A stretch of 64,000 bases of DNA from Halorussus vallis (GCF_024138165.1 NZ_CP100000.1:3100001-3164000), one strand, 5' to 3'. Shown: positions 18,864 to 62,706, counted from the first letter of the stretch. A program made the numbers and translations. The notes: generated from the sequence alone by a model not told the origin.

Positions 18864-18984
18864 CGAAAGCCCCCGCCCGCTCGCGGTCGCTCCGCGGGAT
18901 ATCTCGACGCGGCGTCGCCGCCCCGAGATAGTGGCCCGCCAGAGGCGACCACGCCCTTCGGGCGCGAGCGGACGGCCCCTTTCA
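18864..18984 (-). repeat. Structured intergenic repeat, copy A
   Basis: Read on the minus strand it starts GAAAGGGGCCGTCCGCTCGCG and ends CGCGAGCGGGCGGGGGCTTTC. The two ends form a 13-bp outer stem (one G-T wobble), an internal loop of facing GGG runs, and a GAAAG/CTTTC clamp. Inside lies a second stem framed by GGCGGGCCACTAT and ATATCCCG, shared with copy B. About 120 bases. Confidence 0.75.
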
Positions 18985-19287
18985 TCCACTCCACAGCACC
19001 GCGACCGCACCACACACCGCCCCAGCCGACTCCTTCGCGCCTGCCGGCGCTCAGTCGTCCACCGGAGGACAAACCGCATCCTCTGAGCCTACACTCGCTT
19101 CGCTCGCGCAGACCTCACGCATGAAGGCGCGATACGAGGTCGCGCCGTGGGAGCTTCGCTCCCACGAGCCTTCGGTCGCTGCGCTCCCGAAGACGCCAGC
19201 GCGCGCCACGCATAACGTTCACCATCGAAACAGGTGATGGACCACCCCGCCGAAAGCGCTCAGCGAATCAACCGTCAGGGCGGGACT

Positions 19288-19403
19288 GAAAGGGGCCGCC
19301 CGCTCGCGTTCACTTCAGTCGCCTGGGCGGGCCACTATTCGGCGAGCGCCGCAGGCGCGAGCCGAATATCCCGGCCAGCGACCGCGAGCGGGCGGGGGCT
19401 TTC
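19288..19403 (+). repeat. Structured intergenic repeat, copy B
   Basis: Plus-strand copy, in inverted orientation to copy A. Starts GAAAGGGGCCGCCCGCTCGCG, ends CGCGAGCGGGCGGGGGCTTTC; inner frame GGCGGGCCACTAT...ATATCCCG enclosing an ATTCGGC/GCCGAAT hairpin. Its outer 27 bases are identical to those of copy A. It is preceded by CAGGGCGGGACT, also present before copy C. Confidence 0.75.
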
Positions 19404-19616
19404 GAAGCGTTCTCGTTAGCTATCGTTGCGGTCGTTGTTGGCGATCAAGCGGGGGGCTTTCGAGGCGGTCTGGTCTACCGTAGTCACCGTCGTTCGCACG
19501 AAACGTCCAAAGACCGCCAACGAGTCTGTATCGCCCGGACAGTGAACGTCAGGGAGGAGAACCTCCCCGAAAACTGAAAGCGGGGCTTTTTCTGTCCGGA
19601 CCACCTCGTCCGAGGT

Positions 19617-20021
19617 ATGCAGGGTAATCTGCCACCGGAAGCCCAGGAGAAGCTCGAGGAACTGCAGGACCTTCAGGAGACGGCCCAGCAGGTCGCCGTC
19701 CAGAAGAACCAGGCCGAAACTCAGCTCACCGAGGCCCAGAACGCCCTCGAGGAGATGGACTCCATCGACGAGGACACCCAGATGTACCGCGAGGTCGGCG
19801 AACTCCTCGTGGAGACCGAATACGACGAGGCCCAGGACGACCTCGAGGAGAAGGTCGACAGCCTCGAAATCCGCGTCGAAACCCTCGAGAAGCAGGAGGG
19901 CCGCGTTCAGGAGCAGTTCGAGAGCCTCCAGCAGGAACTCCAGCAGATGCTCGGCGGCGGCGGTGGCGGCCCGCAGGGTCCCCAGGGTCCCGGCATGGGC
20001 GGCGGCGCCGGCGGTTCGTAG
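19617..20021 (+). CDS. pfdB: Prefoldin subunit beta
   Basis: 134 residues. Long amphipathic coiled coil ([20 protein letters not shown] and [20 protein letters not shown]) around the short beta hairpin region [20 protein letters not shown], the hallmark of beta prefoldin. The C-terminus is a Gly/Gln/Pro-rich tail (about 25 residues) typical of halophile homologs. It forms the alpha2-beta4 jellyfish chaperone that passes unfolded proteins to the thermosome. The next gene starts at the base after its stop. Confidence 0.95.
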
Positions 20022-20300
20022 ATGTCCGGCGACGACGCGACGGAGAGCGAACCGACGCCGAGCGACGACGAGGTCGTTCGGACGGCCGCCGAAGCCGCCG
20101 AGGGGCTCATCTTCTCGCGGTTCAAACAGTCGACCGTCAAGGACGTCGACGTGACGGTGACGTTCGAGGACGGCGTGCTGGACGTCGACGTCTACCTCAA
20201 CGTCCCCGACGAGCAGGCCAAGGCCGAGAAGGTCGCCGAGGACGCCGCGCTCGCCGCGCGGTCGGCCGTCGACGACCTGTTCGCCGAGGCCGAGGCGTAA
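20022..20300 (+). CDS. DUF3194 protein
   Basis: 92 residues, starting at the base after the pfdB stop. Acidic N-terminus, then EVVRTAAEAAEGLIFSRFKQ, DVDVTVTFEDGVLDVDVYLN and AEDAALAARSAVDDLFAE. This is the family that sits directly behind prefoldin beta in many archaea, which suggests a role tied to prefoldin, unproven. Convergent with the oxidoreductase that follows; the 240 bases in between show no gene. Confidence 0.85.
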   Translation: MSGDDATESEPTPSDDEVVRTAAEAAEGLIFSRFKQSTVKDVDVTVTFEDGVLDVDVYLNVPDEQAKAEKVAEDAALAARSAVDDLFAEAEA

Positions 20301-20539
20301 CGCGTCGGCACCCTCGGGCGGTGACCGAGGCGGTCGGCCGCCGACCACCGAAACCCGGCCACCGACCCTCGGCCGGCGACGCGTTCGCTCGCTCGAACAC
20401 CACAAAGCATATCCCCCACCCGTGAAATGCTTGGATTACCGCGGGTAGGGGTACTTGCGGTGCTTTCTTTCGAAAACTACGATTCGACAGTGGCGACTCC
20501 GTCAGGTGACCCACCTCGACGCCGGTTGTTGCGTCACGA

Positions 20540-21934
20540 CTACGCCTCGGGCCGGATGTTCTTGTGCCCCCGGAAGATGTTCTCGGGGTCGTAGTCGCGT
20601 TTGAGGGATTCGAGTCGGTCGACGTTGTGGCCGAACGACGTCTGGGCGGGGTCCTCGTGGAGTCCCGGGAAGTTCACGTACTCGCCGCGGGCGACGTCGA
20701 GTTCCCGGATCTTCGCGACGTACTCGCGGGCCCACTCGACGTTCGCCGTGCTCTCGCGGGGGTCGTCCCAGTTGGCCTCGAAGTTCAGGCCGTACGGCGC
20801 GTCGCGGTAGGCGAACGCCGACCCGCCCTCGGGTTCGTCGGCGATGGCGCCGCCCAACTGCCAGAGGTCGATGGTCGTGAGCTTCGAGGGACAGTCGTCG
20901 GCGGCCGCGAGCACCAGGTCGAGCACGTCGTCGGTGAGTTCGTCGAGGTACAGCGACTTCCAGTAGTAGTACCGGCCGTGGGGATAGTCGGCGTCGAGCA
21001 TCGACTGTAGTTCGACGTAGGTCGTCCGACCGCTCATGTCGACCAGCGGGTCGGCGAACTCCCGGTACGGCGCGAGCGCCGCCTCGCCCTCGTTGGGGTC
21101 GCCGGCGTAACAGCCGATGAACGCGACGGCCGGGTCGCCCCGGTGCGCTTCCGGGAACTCCGGAATCTCGGGCACCCAGGCGTAGAACGGCAGGACGCTC
21201 ACCTCGCGGGGCGCGTCGGCGGCGCGCTCGCGGAAGAACTCGTAGGGCGCGCGGCCCGCCTCGCCGGGGTACCACGCGAACAGCGTCTCGATTTCGGGGG
21301 CGACCGGGTGGAGGTCGAACTCGAAACTCGTGACGACGCCGAAGTTACCGCCGCCGCCCCGGAGCGCCCAGAAGAGGTCCCGGTGGCGGTCGGCGCTCGC
21401 GGTGACGAGGCGCCCGTCGGCGGTCACCACGTCGACCGACCGGAGGTTGTCGCACGCGAGGCCGTACGCCCGGCGGAGGTGGCCGTAGCCGCCGCCGAGC
21501 GTCAGGCCGGCGACGCCGGTGTCCGAGACGACGCCGCCGGGGGTCGCCAGGCCGAACTGCTGCGTCTCGCGGTCCACGTCGCCCCACTGGGCGCCGCCGC
21601 CGACCCGGGCGACCCGCTCCTCGGGGTCGACCCGCACGTCGTCCATCGCCGAGAGGTCGACGACCAGCGCGCCGTCGGCGACCGCGTTGCCGGCGACGCC
21701 GTGGCCGCCGCCCCGCGTTGTGACCGGCAGGCCGTTCTCGCGGGCGAACCGGACCGCCGACCGCACGTCGGCGACGCCGTCGCAGTAGGCGACGGCCGCC
21801 GGGTACCTGTTTATCATGCCGTTCCAGACGCGTCGCGCGTGGCGGTAGGCCCCGTCGTCAGGCGTGACGAGGTGGCCCTCCATCGCGGACGCGAGCGCGT
21901 TCGCGTCGAAGTCGTGTTCGGTCATCTCCCCCAC
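20540..21934 (-). CDS. FAD-binding oxidoreductase (PCMH type, berberine-bridge-like)
   Basis: 464 residues. Residues about 40-210 are the FAD_binding_4 domain: PVTTRGGGHGVAGNAVADGA, whose His is the usual site of covalent 8-alpha-histidyl FAD, and GLTLGGGYGHLRRAYGLACD. The position of the second, cysteinyl FAD link of berberine-bridge enzymes carries no Cys, so a single covalent bond is expected. The C-terminus has the BBE motif FGHNVDRLESLKRDYDPENI. These enzymes oxidise sugars or alcohols with O2 or another acceptor; the substrate is unknown. Monocistronic by context. Confidence 0.87.
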   Translation of the reverse strand: MGEMTEHDFDANALASAMEGHLVTPDDGAYRHARRVWNGMINRYPAAVAYCDGVADVRSAVRFARENGLPVTTRGGGHGVAGNAVADGALVVDLSAMDDVRVDPEERVARVGGGAQWGDVDRETQQFGLATPGGVVSDTGVAGLTLGGGYGHLRRAYGLACDNLRSVDVVTADGRLVTASADRHRDLFWALRGGGGNFGVVTSFEFDLHPVAPEIETLFAWYPGEAGRAPYEFFRERAADAPREVSVLPFYAWVPEIPEFPEAHRGDPAVAFIGCYAGDPNEGEAALAPYREFADPLVDMSGRTTYVELQSMLDADYPHGRYYYWKSLYLDELTDDVLDLVLAAADDCPSKLTTIDLWQLGGAIADEPEGGSAFAYRDAPYGLNFEANWDDPRESTANVEWAREYVAKIRELDVARGEYVNFPGLHEDPAQTSFGHNVDRLESLKRDYDPENIFRGHKNIRPEA

Positions 21935-22101
21935 CGATTCCCGGAGCTACGACCGGAGGTAGGATAAAGGCGTATCGTCGGTCGTCCGACGCCCAGTCGC
22001 CCCGGGACTCGGCGACCGCGGTCGCGCCGATTCCGACGTGTCCCCCGCTCGCTTTCCAACCCCGTCGCCCGACTTTTGGTCGTCGGACCCGTAGACGGTC
22101 C

Positions 22102-23034
22102 ATGGACAGGCCACCGGCGGAGACCGGGGAATCCGCGACCGCCTCGCGCCGACTGGTGATGAACCCGACCAGCGGCGGCGGCGACCACGTCGAAGAGGTC
22201 CGGCGGCGCGCCGTCGAACGCGGGTTCGAGGTCGTCGAGACCGAGCGAGCGGGCCACGCGGCCGAACTCGCCGAAGCGGCCGCCGCCGACGGCGTCGACC
22301 TGCTGGCGGTGGCCGGCGGCGACGGGACCATCCACGAAGTCGTCGAGGGACTCGTCGCCGCCGACGCCCTCGATTCGGTGACCCTCTGCGTGGTGCCGGT
22401 GGGGACCGCGAACATCCTCGCGGACGACCTCGGCATCGATGGCATCGCCGAGGGGTTCGAGGTGGCCGAGCGCGGCGAACTCCGACGGCTCGACCTCGGC
22501 TTCGCCGGGGACGAACCGTTCGTGCTGTCGGCCATCGCGGGCCTGCCCGCGGACACCAGCGCGGCCGCGACACACGGTCTGAAGGACCGACTCGGCTCGC
22601 TGGCGTTCGTGGTTACCGCCGTCGAGGAGTCGCTGTCGTTCGACGGCATCCGCGTCGAAATCGACGCCGAGGTCGGCGCGGTCGACCGGGAGTGGTCGGG
22701 CGAGGCGGTGGCGGTCCTCGTCGGGAACGCCCGGGGGTTCGCCACGCCCGGCGGGCGGGGCGACGCCGAGGACGGCCTGCTAGAGGTGACCGTCATCGAC
22801 GAGATTCCCGCCCGAAACGCGATCGCCGAAGTCATCGAGGAGCGACTCCTCGACTGGGACGCCGACCACGTCACCGAACTCCGGGCGCGGCGAATCGACT
22901 TCGCCAGCCTGGAGGACGAACCGGTGACGTTCAGCCTCGACGGCGAGATTCGGACGTTCGAGGACGTGACCCTCGACGTCCGGCCGAGCGCGCTTCAAGT
23001 GCGCGTCGGCGACGACTACGAACCCGGGGGCTGA
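22102..23034 (+). CDS. Diacylglycerol-kinase-like lipid/sphingoid kinase (YegS/DagK family)
   Basis: 310 residues. MNPTSGGGDHVEEV opens the nucleotide-binding lobe, LLAVAGGDGTIHEVVEGL is the GGDGT catalytic loop, and VVPVGTANILADDLGI the third motif; the C-terminal beta lobe ends with the family's DG(E/D) element, FSLDGEIRTFEDV. It likely phosphorylates a lipid alcohol at the inner membrane face. In archaea a role in polar lipid recycling is plausible, without direct evidence. Stand-alone. Confidence 0.87.
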   Translation: MDRPPAETGESATASRRLVMNPTSGGGDHVEEVRRRAVERGFEVVETERAGHAAELAEAAAADGVDLLAVAGGDGTIHEVVEGLVAADALDSVTLCVVPVGTANILADDLGIDGIAEGFEVAERGELRRLDLGFAGDEPFVLSAIAGLPADTSAAATHGLKDRLGSLAFVVTAVEESLSFDGIRVEIDAEVGAVDREWSGEAVAVLVGNARGFATPGGRGDAEDGLLEVTVIDEIPARNAIAEVIEERLLDWDADHVTELRARRIDFASLEDEPVTFSLDGEIRTFEDVTLDVRPSALQVRVGDDYEPGG

Positions 23035-23406
23035 CGGCCGCGAAGGAATACCGTTTCTCGGTCGGAAGCCTCGACCCACTGCGTGGTCGCGCCTGCCGAC
23101 CAGCCGACAGTGACGCGACGATTATCCAACTGCCAGTGAGACGGCTCCCGACCAACCGCCAGTAACGCGTGTACTGACCTACCGGCAGGGCGGGACTGAA
23201 AGGGGCCGCCCGCTACGCGAACCCCGACGACGTAAGCACCGCAGGGAGCGCCGAAGGCGCGACCGAGGAGCGCAGCGAGTCGCGGGAGCGTAGCGGGCGG
23301 GGGCTTTCGAGGTGGACACGGTCCGGACTCTCGTTGCGGTTAGCGAATCGTCGGACTCGTCCGAGGATGGCGATTCCACGAAAACTCCGTGAAAACGCCG
23401 GACTCC
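23035..23406. other. Gene-free interval containing repeat copy C
   Basis: 372 bases between the lipid kinase and the DUF2070 gene, which are convergent. Apart from the structured repeat at 23198-23308, no frame of coding character is present. The flank GGCAGGGCGGGACT upstream of the repeat matches the flank of copy B. Confidence 0.7.
23198..23308 (+). repeat. Structured intergenic repeat, copy C
   Basis: Begins GAAAGGGGCCGCCCGCTACGC and ends GCGTAGCGGGCGGGGGCTTTC. Compared with copies A and B both sides of the outer stem have changed together (CTCGCG/CGCGAG to CTACGC/GCGTAG), which keeps the pairing. The interior differs from A and B and forms other hairpins (GCGCCGAAGGCGC). Confidence 0.75.
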
Positions 23407-25284
23407 TCACGACGCCGCGAGGAAGAAGATGAGCACGCTCACCGCCATCGCGGCCAGCACGACCGCCGCCGCGAGCGCCCCGCCCAGCGCGATGACCGCG
23501 TTGGCGTGGCTCGCCAGCGTCTCGGTGCGGTCGTTGCCGAACACCGTGACGTCCGCGCGCTCGGTCGCCATCCCGGCCGCGACCGGTTCGAGGTCGGCCG
23601 CCGCCTCGTCGGCGAGTTGTCGAATCAGGTCGAGCAGTTCGTCGTGGTCGATGGCCTCGCCGACCTGGTTCGACGCCTCGACCTGGTTGACGATGTGGGT
23701 GTCGGTGGTCATCACCTCCGCCTCGTCGGACGGCAGCGCCGCGACGATGCGGTCGCGGAGGCCGGGTTCCATGTTGTTACCGTCGACCAGTACGTAGGTG
23801 GTGGTCGTCCCGCCGGCTTCGAGCACCGCCACGCGGACGCCGAGCGGGCCGATGCCGTCGACCGGGTCCCAGTCCGTCTCGTCCCACGCGACGCCCATCC
23901 GGAGCGGTCCCTGGTCGGTGGCCGCCAGCGCCTCGCCCGCTCCGGCGGCGGCCTGCATCATCTCGAACGAGCGCTCGCTGCCCGGGTAGACGTGGCCGAG
24001 GTCCGGCCCCGACAGGCCGTCGTTGCAGTTGTGGGCGTCGACGAGCATCACGTCCTCGACGCCCGCCGAACGCGCTTCCGCCGCGGCCGAGAGGCCGACG
24101 GCGTACTCGACGTCGTCGGCGAACTCCGGCGAGTAGGTCGCGACCAGCAGTGCGTCGCCGCCGAACGCCTGGCCGAGCATCTTCGCGTCGCCCTCCTGGA
24201 CCCGGACGCTCGGGGTCGCGGTGTCGGTGAACTCGATGCGGTCGTAGGCCTCGCAGGCGGTTTCGATGATGGTGTCGACCTCGCGCTCGGTGACGAGGTT
24301 GAAGTCGTGGCCCGCGGTGGCGTGGGGCGGGAACGCCAGCCCCTCGGCCGCGGCGGCGACCCGCCGCGGGAGGTTGCCGCCGCCGATTTCGCCCATCGGA
24401 CCGGGGTGAATCATCGGCAGGACGAACCGGGCCTTCTCGGTGCCGTCCTCACGTTCGAAGGAGAGGACCGTCACGGGCACCACGGCCTCCTCGCCGATCT
24501 TCTCGAAGAAGTCCTCGAGTTCGCGGGTGCCCTCGGCGATGTGGCCGATGAACCCCCGGAGGAAGTCGAGCATGCTGACGCCCAGACCCTTCTTCCACGG
24601 CCGGTCGATGAAGCGGACGAACGTCCAGACCGCGAGTCCGTAGATGGCGCACATCACCGCCAGCAGGGCGAAGTCGACCGGGACGATGGCGCCGAGTTCC
24701 GAGGGGGCCTCGTCGGCCCGGTTCAACACGAGGTCGACGAACAGTCGGACGACCGGGCCGCCGCCGATTTCGAGGTACTGCATGGTCCCGCTGTAGATGA
24801 AAAACAGCAGGGCGGCCGTGCCGGTCTGGATGCTGGCGGGCACCGCCGCTATCAGCAGTGACCGCCGGGAAACCGCCATCACGACCAGCAGGCGGAGCGC
24901 GAACACCGACGCCAGGCCGACGATGAGCGCGTCGAAGACGAACTGCTGGCCGAGGCGGGCCGAGGCCAGCGCGATGGCTCCCGCGCCGGTCATGATGGCG
25001 ACGATGAGACCCTCGCAGGTCAGCGCCAGCAGCGACGACCGGTTGTAGGTGAGTTGACCGCCGAGCCACCGGTCGACGGGCGTGGTCAGCAGGCTGGCGA
25101 CGACGGTGGGGACGCCGATGAAGAAGACGCCCTGCCAGGCGTCCTCCAGCACGAAGCGGGAGTCGAACGCACCGACCCCCGCGACGGCGGCGATGAGGAG
25201 GGCGAATCCGACGCTGGCGTACCACCGCGGCGCGCGGAAGATGTACCGCGACAGGCTCGCCAGGTCGCCCTGCGTCGCTGTCAT
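23407..25284 (-). CDS. DUF2070 family membrane protein
   Basis: 625 residues. The N-terminal 220 residues hold about seven hydrophobic helices (ASVGFALLIAAVAGVGAF; LVVMAVSRRSLLIAAV). A large soluble domain follows (VPVTVLSFEREDGTEKARFVL, HPGPMGEIGGGNLPRR, VDAHNCNDGLSGPDLGHVYP), rich in conserved His, Asp and Gly and probably metal-dependent, and one last helix anchors the C-terminus (ALGGALAAAVVLAAMAVSVL). This is the archaeal DUF2070 layout. The HPGP and DAHN motifs suggest a hydrolase, not shown. Monocistronic. Confidence 0.85.
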   Translation of the reverse strand: MTATQGDLASLSRYIFRAPRWYASVGFALLIAAVAGVGAFDSRFVLEDAWQGVFFIGVPTVVASLLTTPVDRWLGGQLTYNRSSLLALTCEGLIVAIMTGAGAIALASARLGQQFVFDALIVGLASVFALRLLVVMAVSRRSLLIAAVPASIQTGTAALLFFIYSGTMQYLEIGGGPVVRLFVDLVLNRADEAPSELGAIVPVDFALLAVMCAIYGLAVWTFVRFIDRPWKKGLGVSMLDFLRGFIGHIAEGTRELEDFFEKIGEEAVVPVTVLSFEREDGTEKARFVLPMIHPGPMGEIGGGNLPRRVAAAAEGLAFPPHATAGHDFNLVTEREVDTIIETACEAYDRIEFTDTATPSVRVQEGDAKMLGQAFGGDALLVATYSPEFADDVEYAVGLSAAAEARSAGVEDVMLVDAHNCNDGLSGPDLGHVYPGSERSFEMMQAAAGAGEALAATDQGPLRMGVAWDETDWDPVDGIGPLGVRVAVLEAGGTTTTYVLVDGNNMEPGLRDRIVAALPSDEAEVMTTDTHIVNQVEASNQVGEAIDHDELLDLIRQLADEAAADLEPVAAGMATERADVTVFGNDRTETLASHANAVIALGGALAAAVVLAAMAVSVLIFFLAAS

Positions 25285-51330: not shown

Positions 51331-52014
51331 TCACAATCCGGTCGGCTCGAACCCGAGGTGCTCCTCGAACTCGTCCATGATCTGTGGTAGTTCCGGGTCC
51401 GGATACGCGACCAGGACGATGGAACCGTCGTCCCACTCGTATGTCCGCCACGCCGGCGAGGACAGGAGCGTCTCGCGGCCGTACGTCTCGACCAGCGCGG
51501 GCGTGAAGACGGTCAGCCAGACGGGGTATTCGAGTTCGTCTTCTTGCAACGAGTCCTCCGTCACCGGCGGTTCGTCCTGGTAGTCCGCGATGGCACTCCG
51601 GAGTAAGTGAGGCATCGCGTACACGACGGCCGGCCGCGAGTTGAGCGCGAAGTATGTCTCCCGCAATACGTCGACGAGTGCGTCGGCGTGCGCTTCGTGG
51701 TCGGCTTCGTCCTCACCGCGTTCGAACAGTGCCTCCTCGATACGGAGTTCGACGTGCGGGAGGTCCGGAGCGCCGAGTGTGTGTTGATTGACGCCGTCGG
51801 CGTACAGTTTCCCGACGATCATGTCCTTCCCGACGCGGGCGTTTCGGTCGTAGGGGCCGTCCCCGACGACGTATCCTTCCAGCGTCGGGTCGTGGAGATG
51901 GTCGGCCTACTCGCCGCCCGTCGAGATGTCCGTGAATCGTGTCCAGACCTTCGAGAGTTGCCCGGTGTCAGCGTCTTCGTCCTTGAAGACGAAGAGGGCC
52001 GTTAACGCACTCAT
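51331..52014 (-). pseudogene. Immunity-like paralog 1, interrupted by in-frame TAG at a conserved Trp
   Basis: From ATG 52014 the frame runs MSALTALFVFKDEDADTGQL to STGGE, meets TAG at 51907-51909 (codon 36), and continues unbroken in the same frame (ADHLHDPTLEGYVVGDGPYD...) to the stop at 51331, 228 codons in all. The intact paralog at 52028-52711 has Trp at this place (GGEWSEHLHDP). A G-to-A change TGG to TAG is enough. A shorter protein could start at ATG 51822 (MIVGKLYADG). Shared blocks: LGAPDLPHVEL, VLRETYFALN, VVYAMP, ALVETYGRETLLSSPAWRTYEWDDGS. Confidence 0.75.
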
Positions 52015-52027
52015 GAACCCCTGGAAA

Positions 52028-52711
52028 TTACCACGGCGGATCGATGTCGAGGTGGTCGTGCATCGCGTCGATGTTGCTCTGAACGAGCGGGTCGGCAGAC
52101 GAAAGGAGAACGACAGTACCGTCGTCCCACTCGTACGTCCGCCAAGCCGGGGCCGACAATAGCCTCTCTCGCCCGTACGTCTCGACCAGTTGTGGGGTAA
52201 AGACGGTGGCCCAGACCAGATAGTTGAACCGACTGCGCCGCAGCGAATCGGCGTCGGCTGGCGTCTCCCCTATCGAATCCCAGATCGCCGTCTGCATCGA
52301 CTCGGGCATCGCGTAGACGACGCTCGGTCGCGGGTCGAGTACGAAGTACGTCTCTCGCAGCACGTCGACGAACGCGTCGGCGTGCGCGACACGGTCAGTT
52401 TCGTCCTCCGCGCGTTCGAACAGGGATTCTTCGACGTGGAATTCGATGTGTGGAAGGTCCGGGGCACCGAGGGTGCGCTCGTTCGCGCCGTCGGCGTAGA
52501 GGCGTCCGACGATCATGTCCTTGCCGACCCGCAGTAGGAGGTCGTTAGGGTCTTCTTGAACGACGTAGCCTTCGAGCGACGGGTCGTGGAGATGCTCTGA
52601 CCATTCGCCGCCCGCCGAGAGATCGTCGAAGCGCTCCCAGACCGTCGAGAGTTGCGCAGTATCCGTGTCCTCGTCACCGAAGACGAACAGCGCAGACAAC
52701 GAACTCATCAC
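52028..52711 (-). CDS. Immunity-like paralog 2 (intact)
   Basis: 227 residues, the only full-length uninterrupted member of the four-gene array. Acidic N-terminus MMSSLSALFVFGDEDTDTAQ, WERFDDLSAGGEWSEHLHDP, LGAPDLPHIEFHVEESLFER, YFVLDPRPSVVYAMPESMQT, and the family end LVETYGRERLLSAPAWRTYE followed by WDDGTVVLLSSADP. No membrane segment. It resembles no family I can name. Tandem diversification behind toxin genes is typical of immunity proteins, so that role is inferred from context. Confidence 0.65.
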   Translation of the reverse strand: MMSSLSALFVFGDEDTDTAQLSTVWERFDDLSAGGEWSEHLHDPSLEGYVVQEDPNDLLLRVGKDMIVGRLYADGANERTLGAPDLPHIEFHVEESLFERAEDETDRVAHADAFVDVLRETYFVLDPRPSVVYAMPESMQTAIWDSIGETPADADSLRRSRFNYLVWATVFTPQLVETYGRERLLSAPAWRTYEWDDGTVVLLSSADPLVQSNIDAMHDHLDIDPPW

Positions 52712-52756
52712 TCGGAGTTCTCAGGAACCGGTCAAATAACTACCTCCGACGCGCGG

Positions 52757-53392
52757 CTATCTCACCGCCGTCTCCAACCCCAGGTGCTCGTTGACGGGTT
52801 TCGGGTCGCCGAGGAAAATCGGGTCCTCGAACGCGACCACAGCGACCGACCCGTCGTCCTACTCCTCGACGCTCCACCCCGGGGCGGACAGCAAGGTATC
52901 TCGTCCGTACGTCTCGACGAGTTCCGGGGGGAAGACCGTAATCCAGCCCACGTAGTTGATGCGGCCGTCTCGTAGCGTTTCGACGGTCGCGGGGAGCGTA
53001 CCGAAGTCGAGAATCACCTCGACGAGTGGGTCGGGAAACGCGTAGACGAACCGCGGGCGGTCGGCCGTGGCGACGTACACCTCCCGTATCACGTCGAGAA
53101 GATTGCGGACCCGAACCGCCAGTTTAGCCTCGTCTTCGACGTCGAACTGTCGCTCCCGAACGTCCAGTTGAACGTACGGCGAGTTGGGGACGATGAACCC
53201 GACGAAGACGGGTTCATCGTAGGAGAACAGCATCCCGCCGACGCCATCCTTCTCGACGATTTCGAAGTTGGAGACGGGTTCTTCTCGACCGGTTTCGAAC
53301 GAATCGGGAAGATCCTCGAAGTGATTGTAGATGTCGACCGGCCTGCCGTCGTCCCTGTCCTCGTACACGAAGACGACGTCCGTCTCGTCCAT
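52757..53392 (-). pseudogene. Immunity-like paralog 3, interrupted by in-frame TAG at a conserved Trp
   Basis: From ATG 53392 the frame runs MDETDVVFVYEDRDDGRPVD to LLSAPGWSVEE, then TAG at 52859-52861, then DDGSVAVVAFEDPIFLGDPK to the stop at 52757. Paralogs 1 and 2 read YEWDDG at this point, so a single G-to-A change has turned the Trp codon into TAG. The remaining 34 codons still match the family, so the lesion is young or is read through. Without readthrough the product lacks its last 35 residues. Confidence 0.75.
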
Positions 53393-54970: not shown

Positions 54971-57372
54971 TTAGGTATTGAACTCGAAGGACCCTGAATC
55001 TGTTTTGGTCGCCTTCAGCATCGTTCCGTCAGGCAGAAAGATCCTAATCTCGTCAATCCGATTCTCACGGCCCGTATTACGAAGCTCATCGGCATAGTCT
55101 CGGACTTTCCGCTTGATGTCCGATTTATCGACGTTGTTCGCACTGCTAACGTCAATCTCTAACTTCGTAGGACTGTCCCCGATTTCATCCCGGACCTGTT
55201 CTCGGGCAAAGCTATCGTGTCCTTCACGCAATTGGTTATATATGAAGTTATTGAGGCTATCAGTGTTCTTTTGTTCGATGTATCTTCCATCGACCCTAAG
55301 ATCGACCTGTCCATCGATGGGGTCTATATCAATTGAGCTATCTGGATAGTTATCACGATAGAATGCCGTTCTTTCGACTTCAAAGAGTGTGGCTCGTACT
55401 TGGTTATTGTTTCCGTTCGCGATCATCTTCGCGTACTCTTTGTAGTCGTTTCCGTCCAATCCACGCACGTCCTCAAGCCGATTGAAGAGACGGCGAGTCT
55501 CCTGCGGAGAGAGTTTATTTGCTCCAACTGCTCGAACCGTAGCAGCACGAACTTCGACTAACCTACTCTCCTTGACGCCAAGTTCGTCGGCATCAGTAGA
55601 TGCGAGTTTGTTCAGCGTCTTCGAATCGATTTTTCGGAGTCCTTTAATGCCGTTGTCGCCCGCATTCGTTACGACATCAATGTAGAACTTCTGCTCGGCA
55701 TCTGTGAGGTCGTACATTTGATCAATATGGTTGCTGAGCTCCGTGCCGGATAGATCGGACTGCTGGAGTTCTTCTCCCCACTCGTTCCAGTCCTCAGCGG
55801 TCGGACAGCTTCGGCTACTACCAGCAAATCCGCGAACCGGGCCCGAGAACGAACATGATGCCTTGAAATCTAGCAGTTTCTCGGCGGACTCTTTATCTAA
55901 CTTATTCAGCAGTTGAACGCCATCGTCACCATCACGCGCGAGGAGCATCCGAAGTCGATTCTCCTGCGCACGCGACAGATCGTCGATCTTGTGCCCGTCG
56001 AGTTTCCGCATCGCGTAGTACAGCCGCACCTGCCCGGAGGCCGTCTTCGCACCGCCGAGGATGCGCCGCGCACTCCGCTTGCTCAACTGCCAACTGCCCG
56101 CTGCAGCGCGTTTCCCGAGTGTGAACGCGGTCTTCTTCGCCGCGCCAGTCGTCCGCGCCTTCACCGCGTCTAGATACCGACTCGCCTGCGTCAACCGTCC
56201 ATTCGAGTCAAGTTTGTCGACGACCTTCGTGAACGTCTTGGTGCTCTTGGCCGCCTTCGTCGCCTGCTGGCCGAACACCATCGACAGCAGGAAGTACGAC
56301 CCGTAGCCGAAGTACCAGTTGTACTGGAATGCCTTGTAGTGTTCTTCCTGCGTCTGTTTGTCGTACGGGTTGCTGCGGTCCTGCTTGTCCTGGACGCTCT
56401 CGACCATCTGGCTCGGCAGCGTTTTCAGAATCTTCTCCAGCAGCCCGAGTTGGGACATCAACGCCACCATCCGCTGAAGCGAATCCAGGAACCCAAACGG
56501 ATTCTCCAGAATGGCTTTCACCGTCTTCGCCGTGCCGCCCGCACCGACCGTGAACCCGGAGAGGAGTCCGAGGTCTCCGGCGGTACTAACGCTCCCTTTC
56601 GGTCCAATCTCCTTGGCGAGCGACCCGTAGAAGTTCGACCGCTCTAACGCGGTCATCGCCCGGTGGTTCCGGTGGCGGTCGGTGGCTTTCACCTCGACGC
56701 TCGTCCCGCTGAGCGCCGTGACCGACGACTCGATGACGCCCGTCGTAAAGTACCGATTGCCGCTGACGCCGGTCGGCGCATCGTCGAAGCGCGTATCGAT
56801 GCGCGTCTCGCCCTCCTTCTGGATTTGGACGCGCGTCACGCCGCTCGGGTCGCTCGCGCTGTAGCCGATTCGATAGTGCGTCTCCGGGGGTAACGCCGTC
56901 GTCCAGTACGACGCAGCGAAGATGCTTATCTCGGGACCTTTGTAGTCGTGTAACGTCGGGTCTGCTCCGACTTGCAGTTCGTGGCCGTCGTCGACGCTGT
57001 CGCCGTCGGTGTCGGCGTACAGCGGGTCGGTCTCGGCCGAATCGGTGTCCAGGTACGCTCCGGGGTCGTCGCCGCTGTAGAGCGCGCCGAGGAACCGCTT
57101 CGAGTCGCCCGGCGACTTCGTCGCGCTCACCGTCCGACTGCCGTAGCGCTCCTCGTAGTCGTCGATGCCGTCGCCGTCGGTGTCGACCTTCGACGGGTCG
57201 CTGTCGAGCAGGTAGTACGTGCGCCCGACGCCGTATCCGCTCTCGCGCTTCTTGCCGGCCTCCTGTTCGTCCGACAAACCGTCGCCGTCAGTGTCGGCGT
57301 CGTACGGGTCGGTGTAGATGCGTTCGTTCGTCCCGGTCAGGATGCCGAGCGTCTCCAGCGAGTTCGACTGGC
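54971..57372 (-). CDS. Orphan toxin cassette: calcium-repeat stub plus PD-(D/E)xK-like nuclease domain, no start codon of its own
   Basis: The frame opens after a TAA upstream and has no ATG or GTG; the first usable codon is a TTG at 57277. It begins SNSLETLGILTGTNERIYTD, near-identical to residues about 1008-1037 of the 1490-residue protein, then follows it loosely (GVGRTYYLLDSDPSKVDTDG; DDYEER) with extra DxDxDG repeats and an Ig-like part (HYRIGYSASDPSGVTRVQI). A hydrophobic/helical middle (FQYNWYFGYGSYFLLSMVFG) precedes the C-terminal domain, residues about 640-768 from the TTG, with DLRVDGRYIEQK, the D...ExK core of PD-(D/E)xK nucleases. Reads as a silent cassette that can replace the C-terminus of the full toxin by recombination. 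Confidence 0.75.
57280..57368 (-). repeat. Cassette homology block, orphan copy
   Basis: About 89 bases nearly identical (roughly four to six differences) to 59595-59683. Identity stops abruptly at 57368, after GAGTTCGAC on the plus strand, where the orphan continues TGGCTTATTC and the full gene AGGCCGTCG. Weaker similarity continues for another 80 bases on the other side. This marks the cassette junction. Confidence 0.8.
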
Positions 57373-57510
57373 TTATTCTTCCGTCGTGAGACGACCGTAC
57401 AGCTCTTTAACGTCGTATTCGATACCCTTCTCTTCGACTCTCTCTTGAACGTACTCTAGTTGTTCACTTCGACTTTCTATGTCTTTTCTTTCGTCCTTAG
57501 CGTCGAACAC
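57373..57510 (-). pseudogene. 3' remnant of a coiled-coil gene, abutting the orphan cassette
   Basis: The frame is open from a TAA at 57550-57552 down to TAA 57373-57375. It reads LGSLVREVFDAKDERKDIES then RSEQLEYVQERVEEKGIEYD and VKELYGRLTTEE, a charged coiled coil with a natural-looking end. Only a GTG (57510) could start it. Its stop lies 5 bases from the cassette junction, so it looks like the tail of a gene truncated when the cassette was inserted. Confidence 0.5.
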
Positions 57511-57582
57511 TTCTCGGACGAGCGAGCCAAGGGTTTTTCTAACATCGCATTAGTTTAGCACCTCTCCGGGTTTGATAGTCTC

Positions 57583-58212
57583 TTATTTTTCCCCGAGCAT
57601 GGACCACTCTGACTCAGACGTAAGCGTGTCAAGCGCATCGGGAAGCCGATTCTGCTTGAACTCGACCCACTCACTGAGCGTCGCTTCTCGGACAAATTTT
57701 TGCCACTCGTCAGCATCATAACCGACGCTACAGGCTACCTGTTTCCAAAACTCAGTTAGCCACATGTGCTCCTGTTCTCGATGAGCAAGCGGTGGGTCAT
57801 CTTCGTCGAGATACACCTGTTTAGCTTGTTCATACGCTTCCATCGCCCCGTCGCTACCACCGACGAGACGGAAATCCCCGATGTATTCGTACCACGCTCC
57901 ATAGCGGGCCGTGTCGTACGCAGTCGAGCCGTCGAAGTCCTTCGTCCGGTCCAGTAACTCCTCTGCGATTAGAATGCCCTGTTCACACCGGGCAACCGCA
58001 CGGTCGGGCTGACCACCGAGCCGATAACACGTTCCAGCTAAGAGAAAGAAATATTCTCCTTGACTGATTTTCTTCCCGTGAGGATCTTCAGCCCATTCGC
58101 TGAAGTACTGATGTCCGGTTGCAGTGTAGTACTCACCCGCTTCGACGAAGTTACCACGCCTGCGGTGTTTATGCCCAGTTTGAGCGTGCTGATTTGCGAT
58201 GTCGAAATCCAT
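57583..58212 (-). CDS. Likely immunity protein of the full-length toxin (TPR-like)
   Basis: 209 residues, starting 21 bases after the toxin stop. FDIANQHAQTGHKHRRRGNF, FFLLAGTCYRLGGQPDRAVA, WYEYIGDFRLVGGSDGAMEA are TPR-like helix pairs; the end is TLSEWVEFKQNRLPDALDTL. Cytoplasmic, acidic, no signal. Position directly behind the toxin-like gene on the same strand is the main argument. Base composition is lower in GC than the flanks. Confidence 0.6.
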   Translation of the reverse strand: MDFDIANQHAQTGHKHRRRGNFVEAGEYYTATGHQYFSEWAEDPHGKKISQGEYFFLLAGTCYRLGGQPDRAVARCEQGILIAEELLDRTKDFDGSTAYDTARYGAWYEYIGDFRLVGGSDGAMEAYEQAKQVYLDEDDPPLAHREQEHMWLTEFWKQVACSVGYDADEWQKFVREATLSEWVEFKQNRLPDALDTLTSESEWSMLGEK

Positions 58213-58233
58213 ATTGTCTCCGTAAGGGTTCTG

Positions 58234-61200
58234 TTAGCAGTCGACGTCGTTATCGTCGTCGTAAACTACTTCTTTATCGTTTTTCGGGATTTCGTCTTCT
58301 GCGTTATCTATTGTCTTGAAGAATCCGCCATCCTTGCCGGTCAGAATCGTCCGCAGGATGTGGTACCCTTCCGAGACGGTGTCAGCGACGGCCATCACCA
58401 CCCTGTTCGGTCCAAGTCGGAGGATGTAATACCGCTGAGAACCCGCATCGATGATTTTTGTTGGGTTTTCGAGTATCTCACGGAGCGTTGAGACACTGTC
58501 GATTGGCTTTTCATCTCGGATAGAGTGTTCCGGATTATCGTGCTTGGTTATATCGACTGTATCTTCGCACTCTTCGTTGTAAGCTGGCTGTTCACTCGCC
58601 GTCATTATTGTGCCGCCGACAATGGAGATGACAATCTCTTCGAGATAGTCCGTTCGTCCGATGACAGTATAGTCTCCTTCGCCGTGCTCGTGAACAGTCG
58701 GATTGTTCCGGAGAACCTGCCGAATATCGGCCGTGGTGAGAGTAGTTGTCTCGGCAATGTACTTCCAGCCGTGCCCGCGAGCTATCGTCTCGCCAGTTCG
58801 CGGGTCTGTTTCTGTTGCGACTGTCCCGGTCGCCAGCGTTACGGTCGTCGGCAGCGCAGTATCACTCGCTAGGTATCGCGCTTTGACGCCAGTCGTAGGC
58901 TGATTCTTGACGGTTTCGCCGTCTGCAGGCACGTACTCGTTCGCGAGGTACAGTCCACCAGCAAACACGCTGATAATCACACCGCCAATTAATGCACGAG
59001 CAAGAACGGAGGGGTCGGTAGGTGTTGAAACTGCTCCACCGACGACGACACCCGACGCTGCTAATTTTGCGCCACCGCCTTCTTTCACCTCGATTTTGAC
59101 AGCGTACCCGTTCCCATGGCTGTCGGTCAGATTGATCCAGTATTCTTCCGGCGGTTCGTTGAGGACACCGTGGTCCTCGAACTCGATCCGGTACTCCCCG
59201 TCCGTTCCGGCCGTGACTTTCGCCTTACTCGCATTCCAGTAGGAATCCTCTAGGAAGTTCGCCGGGTCGTACTTCGGTTTACCCTCGACTGAGACTGCAG
59301 ACTCGTCTTCGACCGAGACCTCAACGTAGTCGTTGTAATTGTCCGAGTTGACTTCGGTGATCGAAGGTGGAGTATCCTCAACGAGTGGACGAGGGTCTAC
59401 GGCGTCTCCGAATCCATCACCGTCACTATCGGAATCAAGGAGATTCGTTCCCCAAATCCGCCGTTCCTCGTAGTCGTCGAGGACGTCTCCATCGGAGTCG
59501 ACCCTCGTCGGGTCGCTGTTCAGCAGGTAATAGGTGCGCCCGACGCCGTTTCCGGCCTCGTGCTTGTCGCCGACTTCCTGACCGTCTGGGATGCCGTCGC
59601 CGTCGGTGTCGGCGTCGTAGGGGTCGGTGTAGATGCGTTCGTTCGTCCCGGTGACGATGCCGAGCGTCTCCAGCGAGTTCGACAGGCCGTCGTCGTCGGT
59701 ATCGCGAGTGACCTGCACGTCGAAGTACGACACCCTGACGGTCGACATGTTCAGCGCCAGCACGCGGACCGTCAGCGTCTCGCCCGCGGCGTGGGTCAAG
59801 TCCTTCTCTATCGTCTTCGAGTTGGTGACTCGCTCGCCGTCCTCGCCGTCGACGTCGAAGACGGTGTACGTGTCCGAGTCGGTGACGAGTAGGACCTGCG
59901 CCGTGGCGTTGACTTCCTTCGCCGATCCCTCGACTCGGGCCCGGACCGTGATCTCCGAGGCGTCGGCCGGGAGTTCGACCGACCGGGTGAGCCGCGACGG
60001 CGGAATCGGGTCGCCGCCGGCCCGACCGGGAATCGTCGTGCCCGGCGGCGGGTCGTAGGGTTCGCTGGTCGTGGTCGTCTCGGTCGTGGTCGTCGGCGGA
60101 TAGCCCGGACCGAACGGATTCTCGCAGTCGTCGCACAGTCTGTTGGTTCCGACCCTGCCTCCCGTGCTGCCCTTTGCCGACAGAATCTCGTCGGAGAGCG
60201 TCCGCGTCGACGAGGAGTCGTTCTCCTGCGTGAGCGTCCCGGATTCGTCCGACTCCGTGCTCGCGTCCGCTGTCGCCGAGTCGAACGTCTGGGCGGTCGT
60301 CGACCCACCGACGACGACCCCACCGCCGCCGTTACAGTCGCCGCTACAGTTCCACCCGTCCAGGTCGTCGAAGTCCTCGTCGATGGCGTACCTGGGGTCG
60401 GGGTCGACCTTCTGCTGGGCCTCCCACTCCTTCTCGTTCAGCACCGTGAACGTCGAGAAGTGCGGGGTCGTGCCGGTCACCGTGTCGTTGGTCGCGTCGA
60501 CCGACGACGGCAACTGCACGTACGTCTGGAGGCTCCGGTTGTAGGTGTACAGCGCGAGATCTCGCTCGTCTTCGACCCGCGTCTCGTCGTAGTCGATGGT
60601 GAGGTTCGCGCGCTCGAACTCTCGCTCGGACTCGAAGTGCAGCACTTCGGAGGCGGCCGCCCGCTTCACCGATTCGGGCTGGACGCGCTGGTTCGTCTCG
60701 TTTCGCACCGTGATGCCGCCGGCGATGGCTCCGTTGCCGGTGACGTTCACCGCGACGCCGACGGTTTCGTTCTTCGTCGTCGTCGAGAACGTCTCCTCGC
60801 CGTCCGGCACGCCGTCGCCGTCGGTGTCGGCGACCGTCGGGTCGGTCTCCAGTTCGACCTCGTCGGCGTCGGGCAGTCCGTCGCCGTCGGTGTCGGGTCG
60901 GAGCGGGTCGGTCCCGTGGACGGTCAGTTCAGCCGAGTCGTTCAGTTCGTCGACGTCGGTGTCGGCCCGAATCGGACTCGTCGTCGCGTTCTGCTCGCGG
61001 AGGTTGGCGAGTCCGTCGCCGTCGAGGTCCTCGTCGGCGTCCGAGACGGTGTCGTTGTCGGTGTCGGCCGTCAGGGGTTCGACGCCGCGGAACCGCTGTT
61101 CGAACCCGTCGCGGAGTTCGTCGTCGTCGGTGTCGGCGTCGTGGGGCTTCAGTTCGAAGAGGTACTCGTAGTACGTCGTGACGCCGTCTTCGTCGAAGTC

Positions 61201-62706
61201 CTCGTTTCCGTCGAGGACCTGGTTGGCGGACTCGTTTCGCCCCGTTCGCGAGGAGTTGCTGTCGTAATCGAGGGGCGCGGTCCCGGCGGTGTCCCGTTCG
61301 TACTTCTCGGGCAGACCGTCGGCGTCGAGTCGCAACGTGTCGTGTCCGGTCACCGGCGGGGCGTCCGGGTCGTCGGGCGCCCAGCGTCGGTTCGGGTCGG
61401 TCGCCGAGACGGTGATGCGATTGACCTTCCGGTCCAGCGTGAGATTGGTACTGAAAGTGCCGACGGTCCCCGGCGTGGCGTTCACGTCGAGCGCCATCGT
61501 CCGGTTCGCGCCGTTGAGCGTCAGGGTCAGCGGGTCGAGTTCGTGGCCCCGGACGTCGAAGACGCGACCGCGAACCGCGTAGGTGACGCTCTCGTTGTGG
61601 GCCATATCCTCGCTGACGGTGATGGTGACGTTCGGCGTGCTCGCGAGGTCGAGTTGGTCGAGCGCCTTCTGGGCGTGAATCCAGGCGACTCGGTACTGGC
61701 TAACGGCGGCGTGGCCCCGGTCGCTGCCCCGGAAGCGCTCGGCGCGCTCGTAGGCCGCCCGCGCGTCCGTGAGGTTCCGTTCGACCGCGTCGGCGTCGTA
61801 GGAGACGTTCCGCGCCCGCAGAATCTCGGCGACGCGTTCGGCGTCGGCGATGGCCGTCTTTGCCAACTGCCGGTCGGACCGCACCAGCAACGTCGTGACG
61901 TTCGGCGCGAACTTCGGGGGCGTGCTCGCTCGCTTGTCGAGTTCGAACAGTTCCGCCGACGTAGTCCGATTCGCGTCGAGCACGTACTGGAGCGAGTCGT
62001 CGAGCGCTTCCAGCGCCTTCGTCCGGTGGCGCTCGACCGACCGCCCAGGACCCGCGAACTCCGCGTCCTGCAGTGCGTCGATGGCCGCGACCCGGTAGTC
62101 GACCGCCGAGGCGTTCTCCTCGACGGTGACGTCGACGCTCGCGTTCGCCAGCGCCTCGCTCGCGTTCTTCCTGTGCGAGCGGTTGTCGACGTTCCCGGGC
62201 GTGTTCCGGTTCGCCACCCACTCGGGCGGCCCGCGCTCCTTCGACGAGGGGCCGCCGGCCCACGACGGCGGGCCGCCGCCTTTGTCGCCTTTCTTCGGTC
62301 CCTTGCCCTTCCCCGGATGGGTCCCGTTCTTCGGTCCCTTCCCGCTACCGGGGTTCGTTCCGTTCTTCGGCCCCTTTCCCTTGCCGGGGTGGGTGCCGTT
62401 TTTGGGTCCCTCGCCCTTTCTCGGATGCGTCCCGTTCTTCGACCCCTTTCCGTTGCCGTTCTTCGGTCCCTTGCCCTGCTTCGGGCCCTTCTCGGTGGTC
62501 GTCGCGGTCGAGTCACCGTCTCCTCGATACGGCGGGAGCAACCCGTGCCTGGAGAGCGAGTCGGTGACGCTATCGAGCAGCGCGTTTCGAGTCGCGTCGT
62601 TCGGCCGGCTCGGCGGTTCGAGGGCCGCCGCGGCCGGCGTGAGCGTCGACGTGACTATCAGTACGGAGAAGACGACCGCGAGGATTCGTCTGGTCCGAAG
62701 GTTCAT
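58234..62706 (-). CDS. Secreted 1490-aa polymorphic-toxin-like protein with calcium-binding repeats
   Basis: Signal peptide (RRILAVVFSVLIVTSTLTPA), then about residues 75-145 a Lys/Gly/Pro/Asn repeat (GPKNGTHPGKGK units), a helical domain (FAGPGRSVERHRTKALEALD), Ig-like strands, and from about 455 to 630 thrombospondin type 3-like calcium loops (HDADTDDDELRDGFE; RPDTDGDGLPDADE). A second set lies at about 1000-1090 (DADTDGDGIPDGQE), containing the segment duplicated in the orphan cassette. A hydrophobic helix (GGVIISVFAGGLYLANEY) near 1240 precedes the C-terminus. The last 110 residues, DNPEHSIRDEK...LREILENPTKII...RYYILRLGPNRVVMAVADTV...HILRTIL, resemble the BECR-fold nucleases of toxin systems (inference). 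Many N-x-S/T sites. GC content drops over the C-terminal part. Confidence 0.8.
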   Translation of the reverse strand: MNLRTRRILAVVFSVLIVTSTLTPAAAALEPPSRPNDATRNALLDSVTDSLSRHGLLPPYRGDGDSTATTTEKGPKQGKGPKNGNGKGSKNGTHPRKGEGPKNGTHPGKGKGPKNGTNPGSGKGPKNGTHPGKGKGPKKGDKGGGPPSWAGGPSSKERGPPEWVANRNTPGNVDNRSHRKNASEALANASVDVTVEENASAVDYRVAAIDALQDAEFAGPGRSVERHRTKALEALDDSLQYVLDANRTTSAELFELDKRASTPPKFAPNVTTLLVRSDRQLAKTAIADAERVAEILRARNVSYDADAVERNLTDARAAYERAERFRGSDRGHAAVSQYRVAWIHAQKALDQLDLASTPNVTITVSEDMAHNESVTYAVRGRVFDVRGHELDPLTLTLNGANRTMALDVNATPGTVGTFSTNLTLDRKVNRITVSATDPNRRWAPDDPDAPPVTGHDTLRLDADGLPEKYERDTAGTAPLDYDSNSSRTGRNESANQVLDGNEDFDEDGVTTYYEYLFELKPHDADTDDDELRDGFEQRFRGVEPLTADTDNDTVSDADEDLDGDGLANLREQNATTSPIRADTDVDELNDSAELTVHGTDPLRPDTDGDGLPDADEVELETDPTVADTDGDGVPDGEETFSTTTKNETVGVAVNVTGNGAIAGGITVRNETNQRVQPESVKRAAASEVLHFESEREFERANLTIDYDETRVEDERDLALYTYNRSLQTYVQLPSSVDATNDTVTGTTPHFSTFTVLNEKEWEAQQKVDPDPRYAIDEDFDDLDGWNCSGDCNGGGGVVVGGSTTAQTFDSATADASTESDESGTLTQENDSSSTRTLSDEILSAKGSTGGRVGTNRLCDDCENPFGPGYPPTTTTETTTTSEPYDPPPGTTIPGRAGGDPIPPSRLTRSVELPADASEITVRARVEGSAKEVNATAQVLLVTDSDTYTVFDVDGEDGERVTNSKTIEKDLTHAAGETLTVRVLALNMSTVRVSYFDVQVTRDTDDDGLSNSLETLGIVTGTNERIYTDPYDADTDGDGIPDGQEVGDKHEAGNGVGRTYYLLNSDPTRVDSDGDVLDDYEERRIWGTNLLDSDSDGDGFGDAVDPRPLVEDTPPSITEVNSDNYNDYVEVSVEDESAVSVEGKPKYDPANFLEDSYWNASKAKVTAGTDGEYRIEFEDHGVLNEPPEEYWINLTDSHGNGYAVKIEVKEGGGAKLAASGVVVGGAVSTPTDPSVLARALIGGVIISVFAGGLYLANEYVPADGETVKNQPTTGVKARYLASDTALPTTVTLATGTVATETDPRTGETIARGHGWKYIAETTTLTTADIRQVLRNNPTVHEHGEGDYTVIGRTDYLEEIVISIVGGTIMTASEQPAYNEECEDTVDITKHDNPEHSIRDEKPIDSVSTLREILENPTKIIDAGSQRYYILRLGPNRVVMAVADTVSEGYHILRTILTGKDGGFFKTIDNAEDEIPKNDKEVVYDDDNDVDC
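59595..59683 (-). repeat. Cassette homology block, full-length copy
   Basis: Partner of 57280-57368. It encodes NSLETLGIVTGTNERIYTDP and YDADTDGDG in the full protein. A crossover here would swap everything C-terminal of residue about 1040 for the orphan module. Confidence 0.8.

Follow-up and report, generated by a model that had tools for sequence, protein, structure and literature searches.

What kind of element is the imperfect hairpin that occurs three times, each time between genes, within a 64,000-nucleotide stretch of the Halorussus vallis genome (GCF_024138165.1 NZ_CP100000.1:3100001-3164000; hereafter the window)? A preliminary description had presented these copies (A, B and C; Table 1) as a structured repeat family with compensatory change in the outer stem, and had proposed a small RNA, a mobile hairpin element or a nucleoid or transcription boundary element. 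Our analysis strongly supports a structured family, through covariation in many further copies. We assign a probability of roughly 0.55 to its being a non-autonomous mobile hairpin, similar to the bacterial repetitive extragenic palindromic (REP) sequences and bacterial interspersed mosaic elements (BIMEs), that is recognized as a folded single strand, either DNA or RNA, by a putative enzyme.

Structure, covariation and distribution of the hairpins

The hairpins fall into two subtypes with a common frame, which comprises a 9-10-nt leader GGGNGGGACT, a clamp formed by GAAAG/CTTTC, two unpaired GGG runs opposite each other, and a stem of 12-13 bp termed P1. Inside this frame, type I copies (109-123 nt for most) carry a side hairpin, P2, often NCCGAAGGN and sometimes an open loop, together with a stem, P3, that has a conserved asymmetric internal loop ahead of TAT/ATAT; tandem G.A mismatches are present in many of the apical stems. 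Type II copies (93-121 nt) have a ladder-like interior in which very short stems alternate with G.A- and A-rich loops, and the common lengths of these copies, 97, 105 and 113 nt, along with 121 nt, follow 8-nt steps that correspond to one rung of two base pairs plus GA/GA per side. These non-canonical loops are conserved between genera, and the best type II matches in other genera share the leader, the clamp and the GGG/GGG loop while their P1 sequence is wholly different.

Covariation was evaluated in an alignment of 49 type I copies (A2), the source of covariance model R1, and in one of nine type II copies (A3). In A2, 97.3% of the cells pair and 18 of 40 pairs are changed on both sides; the covariation score of 0.278, compared with 0.104 after shuffling, was reached by none of 500 shuffles, and covariation was lost when the partner was slid by 1-3 columns. 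Similarly, 15 of 36 pairs in A3 and 25 of 40 pairs among 92 copies from other species are changed on both sides (0/500 shuffles in each case), the latter alignment being model-fitted and leaning towards the model. The clamp covaries as well (GAAAG/CTTTC 257, CAAAG/CTTTG 27, GGAAG/CTTCC 3, CGAAG/CTTCG 1), with tallies that span related genomes and represent copies rather than independent events; a single combination, containing a G.U, was not fully Watson-Crick, other combinations having been permitted by the search. The GGG/GGG mismatch is retained in 48/49 copies of A2, 9/9 of A3 and 84/92 copies of other species. At two loci (L007, positions 1501-1621, and L268), the site of the GGG/GGG mismatch is now perfectly palindromic, as would be expected after quasipalindrome correction.

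The three window copies were located within 1-2 nt of the positions first described, with the shared ends and stem letters as reported (CTCGCG/CGCGAG in A and B, and CTACGC/GCGTAG in C), and GGG lies opposite GGG within the clamp in each. On the strands listed in Table 1, the RNA folds of these long hairpins have z-scores of -5.0 (A), -7.6 (B) and -7.6 (C) relative to dinucleotide shuffles, and their outer folds are unchanged under DNA folding parameters. The compensatory stem change originally proposed holds within each subtype, whereas the difference between C and A/B is not a single compensatory swap, because C belongs to the other inner subtype, type II.

The genome contains 78 occurrences of the 3' end GGGCGGGGGCTTTC (54 exact, 24 with one mismatch), and the reversed control has 3; the recurrence is therefore not due to chance. 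R1 returned 71 matches at an E-value of 1e-3 or better in this 5.05-Mb genome, that is, at least 71 copies. Across Halorussus, where 132 candidates were scored per genome and high counts are consequently floors, R1 copies range from 0 (G019) and 1 (G017) to at least 122 (G022). Type I was detected in 42 of 146 genomes and 15 of 57 genera of the order, with a dense presence in Halorussus and a patchy one beyond. The type II model R2 (A5), which drew mostly on copies from this genome, with four from plasmids added, had matches in 107 of 146 genomes, representing 44 of 57 genera; with 26 candidates scored per genome and many genomes reaching 26, its copy counts are lower bounds. Type II copies are also carried by plasmids of at least 10 haloarchaeal genera. 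Among named loci that are related, most come from Halorussus and Haladaptatus. The search of haloarchaeal genomes proposed in the preliminary description has thus yielded abundant covarying copies, which are not confined to parts of known insertion sequences, the Y1 transposase being absent from several high-copy genomes.

Intergenic sites, flanks and hairpin replacement

All 60 copies examined in this genome are intergenic, and gene calls around A/B and C bear this out for the window. Copies A and B occupy the 899-nt gap between a pcc1-like open reading frame (ORF) and prefoldin beta, and C is flanked by ORFs that end at 23034 and at 23407. Adjacent pairs within 500 nt are invariably head-to-head with the 5' leaders facing each other (22/22), usually 39-47 nt apart with a mode of 42; A and B form such a pair, lengthened by a 285-nt insert. 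In codirectional gaps, as delimited by a simple codon-score gene caller, hairpins oriented along the genes outnumber those in the opposite orientation by 27:11 in this genome and 47:14 in other species (74:25 in total; combined p 8.5e-7, with copies within one genome not fully independent). The same-strand start downstream of a hairpin lies at a median distance of about 135 nt, and many copies are found in divergent gaps.

The insert between A and B represents a second non-coding repeat (class 2), about 200-285 nt long with the motif GCGAGGGATGAGCGAACG...GAATCGGTTGGGGAGGGTGTGG, which often separates two facing hairpins and is also present in Halobaculum. Besides the window, it was located at L014, L027, L030, L037, L040, L044, L059 and L252, the first six of which share the layout of A and B.

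Further repeats accompany the flanks. On the left, tandem 26-bp units (CACCGGAAGCGCTCGGTGA), which are small palindromes, precede the 5' end of most Halorussus copies (e.g., L025, L020 and L034), the genome containing 37 matches to them and the reversed control none. At L016, L020, L023, L045 and L047, the leader region in the left flank carries an inserted double-hairpin module (TTCTCGTGAGCGGAGCGAACGAGAGCTCGTCGGACCGGAGGTCCGACGG, about 48 nt), and modules like it lie in the hairpin loops of L167, L170, L190 and L237 as palindromes nested in palindromes. On the right, about 30 nt have a pyrimidine at every third base with a frequency of 0.91 in this genome and 0.80 in other species, compared with 0.31-0.63 in the other phases; this signal, about three times the largest null score, accompanies any hairpin type among some 180 related copies. 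We rejected the interpretation of the right flank as protein-coding in origin, given that type II copies, most of which have an in-frame TAG in this genome, show the same pattern, that hairpin lengths vary in all phases, and that a tblastn comparison against plasmids returned no match. The flank does not code in a consistent frame. Flank arrays as an independent, pre-existing target were likewise discarded, as they were not found in hairpin-poor Halorussus genomes.

Several lines of evidence suggest that hairpins can move independently of their surroundings. In G013, three copies share an identical 115-nt hairpin but differ in their flanks: to the right, identity ends at CTTTC, and to the left it takes in the leader and, for one pair, reaches about 35 nt. 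Among 29 hairpin pairs from five genomes with at least 93% identity, flank identity (positions 11-40) averaged 0.40-0.58 on the left and 0.36-0.55 on the right, mostly little above the baseline set by distant hairpin pairs (0.34-0.36 and 0.33-0.36), with some of the six closest pairs sharing a flank. Because the flanks of such similar hairpins are mostly little closer than those of distant ones, the histories of hairpins and flanks are largely uncoupled. Nested arm accretion, considered for the left 26-bp and right 57-bp repeats, was not supported, since hairpin identity is largely decoupled from the flanks.

Orthologous sites in other genera reveal replacement as well. L412 and L419 share their right hairpin, apart from its apical loop, but carry different hairpins on the left; L428 and L432 have kept the left hairpin and differ in the right one; and both hairpins differ between L434 and L443. 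By comparison, L259 and L268 have an almost unchanged core with a P1 that differs on both arms, and the five genomes of one genus represented by L263, L265, L269, L270 and L271 retain the same hairpin beside a diverged intergenic stretch. In the right hairpin of L428 (1656-1756), a type II interior is inverted within its own normal P1 and clamp, which suggests an inversion between the stem arms. The pcc1-pfdB gap measures 899 bp here, with A and B, and 139 bp in G019, so that presence and absence are seen at this site while the flanks are not alignable.

Empty sites, which the preliminary description had proposed looking for in relatives, were found: GGGNGGGACT joined directly to TTCGA occurs 12 times at up to one mismatch and never in the control. 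Two of these sites are inside genes and look like chance matches, and most of the others have the left and right context of filled sites. Within the family, empty sites occur mainly in hairpin-rich genomes, with one match each in the low-copy Haladaptatus-group genomes G003, G005 and G007. Some of these sites may be slippage deletions, because the near-direct repeats GGGACT...GGGGCT surround the hairpin. Comparison of empty and filled sites revealed no target duplication of the kind that characterizes miniature inverted-repeat transposable elements, with at most CT common to both ends.

A proposed mobile hairpin and its alternatives

The spread of copy numbers, the identical hairpins with differing flanks and the replacement at orthologous sites support the mobile element named in the preliminary description. 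We propose that the plus strand would fold singly, as single-stranded DNA during replication or as RNA, and that a putative enzyme supplied by the host would read the leader, the clamp and the fixed mismatches; the link between a folded strand and an enzyme is one that we infer. Such an enzyme would insert the hairpin at a short intergenic site, or swap it into one, in most cases pointing the same way as the genes around it. The fold would be maintained by selection for recognition while the stem sequence drifts, and some copies might subsequently be retained because they serve locally at gene boundaries. A more specific version, which we regard as tentative, views the family as an order-wide hairpin class of Halobacteria and a novel type of mobile element, a cassette exchanged among fixed intergenic sites by a dedicated enzyme that reads GGG/GGG and G.A in the folded single strand, and possibly also a gene-boundary RNA.

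The strand preference rests on the conserved mismatches, which are purine-purine on the plus strand (GGG/GGG, G.A) and C/C or T.C on the minus strand, and on G.U cells, which outnumber A.C cells on the plus strand (58:12, 12:1 and 55:24). Both features favor recognition of the plus strand, as single-stranded DNA or as RNA. Counting every column and type a single time gives ratios of 23:11, 7:1 and 24:21, in which the excess is weak or absent.

Some observations weigh against mobility. No transposase or recombinase was identified in the searches made, and no clean filled/empty ortholog pair that would fix the outer boundaries was obtained. Ordinary gene conversion, instead of transposition, could account for the replacement between sites. 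Near-universality across the order and the persistence of a single hairpin in five congeneric genomes also fit a selected cellular function, and type II counts are floors only.

The principal alternative, compatible with mobility and in our judgment possible though doubtful, is a functional RNA family, in which copies would be transcribed with the neighboring gene and act in cis (3'-end formation, processing or attenuation) or as a small RNA, with duplication and selection producing their multiplicity. It would account for the co-orientation of the plus strand with both neighboring genes in 74/99 codirectional gaps, for the purine-purine mismatches, for the hairpin retained in five genomes and for the type II loops conserved across genera. 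However, it does not readily explain a range of 0-122 copies among congeners or the replacement of hairpins at orthologous sites, and in the many divergent gaps the plus strand lies downstream of no gene; the asymmetry of G.U over A.C, which also speaks for it, is weak by distinct column types.

An inert old palindrome, in which compensatory changes arise solely from DNA-level quasipalindrome correction with one arm templating the other, is improbable. Such correction probably happens at L007 and L268, and the P1 changed on both arms between L259 and L268 around a nearly unaltered core is consistent with it. As the main process, however, it would erase GGG/GGG and the other internal loops; their persistence, with GGG/GGG kept in more than 90% of copies and present in type II copies order-wide, is something for which it cannot account.

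The Y1_Tnp domain (PF01797) had no match in six high-copy genomes, some of them draft assemblies: G011 (75 copies), G013 (86), G018 (56), G015 (50), G021 (32) and G014 (26). Among 130 5' ends scanned, the next 3' end lay more than 260 nt away in two only (at 297 nt and at 3.6 kb), and this limited scan showed no coding relative that was consistent between distant hairpin ends. With Y1 thus absent from genomes holding 26-86 copies, mobilization by IS200 or by REP-associated tyrosine transposases (RAYTs) is unsupported, and we consider least probable of all an IS200/IS605-derived non-autonomous element, whether a palindrome-associated transposable element (PATE) or a REP moved by RAYT/TnpA, despite the palindromic form, the lack of target duplication, the REP/BIME-like layout and the known PATEs of haloarchaea (PMC3119063).

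Relation to known systems and features of the window

If the mobile reading is correct, these hairpins would be among the commonest structured non-coding elements of haloarchaea, and in several high-copy genomes their mobilizing activity would be other than the usual IS200/RAYT. Bacterial REPs and BIMEs are extragenic, high-copy, imperfect hairpins with conserved mismatches, arranged in inverse pairs and associated with RAYT transposases. The hairpins described here are similarly extragenic, multi-copy, imperfect and arranged in inverted pairs; unlike REPs and BIMEs, they are archaeal, three to five times longer, and linked to no recognized GTAG/RAYT system. Integron attC sites, which are recombination sites recognized when folded as a single strand and have a variable stem and conserved unpaired features, offer an analogy in how the hairpins might work, although neither R boxes nor cassette arrays were seen by eye, in a search outside which integrase genes lay.

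The family is apparently undescribed and is absent from Rfam. The gathering scan of the window matched only tRNAs, the A/B region including the class 2 repeat gave nothing even at an E-value of 1, and E-value scans of seven order-wide type II loci gave no match. Searches of open-access full-text literature gave one relevant paper, on Haloquadratum (PMC3119063). Its SMR-A elements of Haloquadratum walsbyi (HqIRS42/43/55) are about 110 bp long and have prominent inverted terminal repeats but neither a target duplication nor a transposase; they reach 54 copies per genome, insert into near-terminal palindromes of PATE/IS605, are commonly more than 95% identical within one type, and have a mobilization described as enigmatic (PMC3119063). 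Judged from this description, we consider them the nearest published relatives. The hairpins here are also about 110 nt long, with P1 and the clamp as inverted terminal repeats and no target duplication. In contrast to SMR-A, most of their pairs are 50-88% identical, and the copies diverge widely with covariation and share fixed mismatches. They appear to occupy their own intergenic leader/right-flank sites, some beside a class 2 repeat. The Haloquadratum plasmid PL47 had no R1 match and was set aside as a source of SMR-A. PATEs, which are IS605-derived, palindromic and non-coding elements of Haloquadratum (PMC3119063), resemble the hairpins in being palindromic, non-coding and haloarchaeal, and differ from them in lacking terminal inverted repeats and in belonging with a TnpA family that is absent here from several high-copy genomes. 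With its numerous copies, clear ends and naturally occurring replacements, the family would make the enigmatic mobilization of small mobile repeats testable, and it affects the interpretation of intergenic regions, transcript ends and promoters in haloarchaea.

Table 1. Hairpin copies and adjoining features in the window, with covariance model (CM) scores
Feature	Position	Strand	Remarks
Copy A, type I hairpin	18865-18983	-	CM R1 99.0 bits; clamp GAAAG/CTTTC, GGG/GGG internal loop, stem P1, side hairpin P2, stem P3 (TAT/ATAT internal loop)
Leader of copy A	18984-18992	-	GGAGTGGAT, variant of the conserved GGGNGGGACT
Class 2 non-coding repeat	18993-19277	.	~285 nt, separates the 5' ends of A and B, which face each other; lengthened head-to-head linker
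Leader of copy B	19278-19287	+	GGGCGGGACT
Copy B, type I hairpin	19288-19403	+	CM R1 130.1 bits
Right flank of copy B	19404-19436	+	pyrimidine at about every third base (GAA GCG TTC TCG TTA GCT ATC GTT GCG GTC)
Second 3'-arm copy	19449-19463	+	GCGGGGGGCTTTCGA, unpaired, ~57 nt 3' of copy B
Leader of copy C	23188-23197	+	GGGCGGGACT
Copy C, type II hairpin	23198-23308	+	CM R2 120.7 bits; outer frame as in A/B, ladder of short stems and G.A-rich internal loops inside

Two other repeat regions were observed in the window. Positions 51394-52959 contain three direct repeats spaced about 700 bp apart with 70-76% identity, probably tandem paralogous genes. Positions 56974-61139 and 62287-62495 contain many diverged short repeats that may encode repeats of the Asp-Gly-rich calcium-binding type, as well as a 36-bp tandem repeat.

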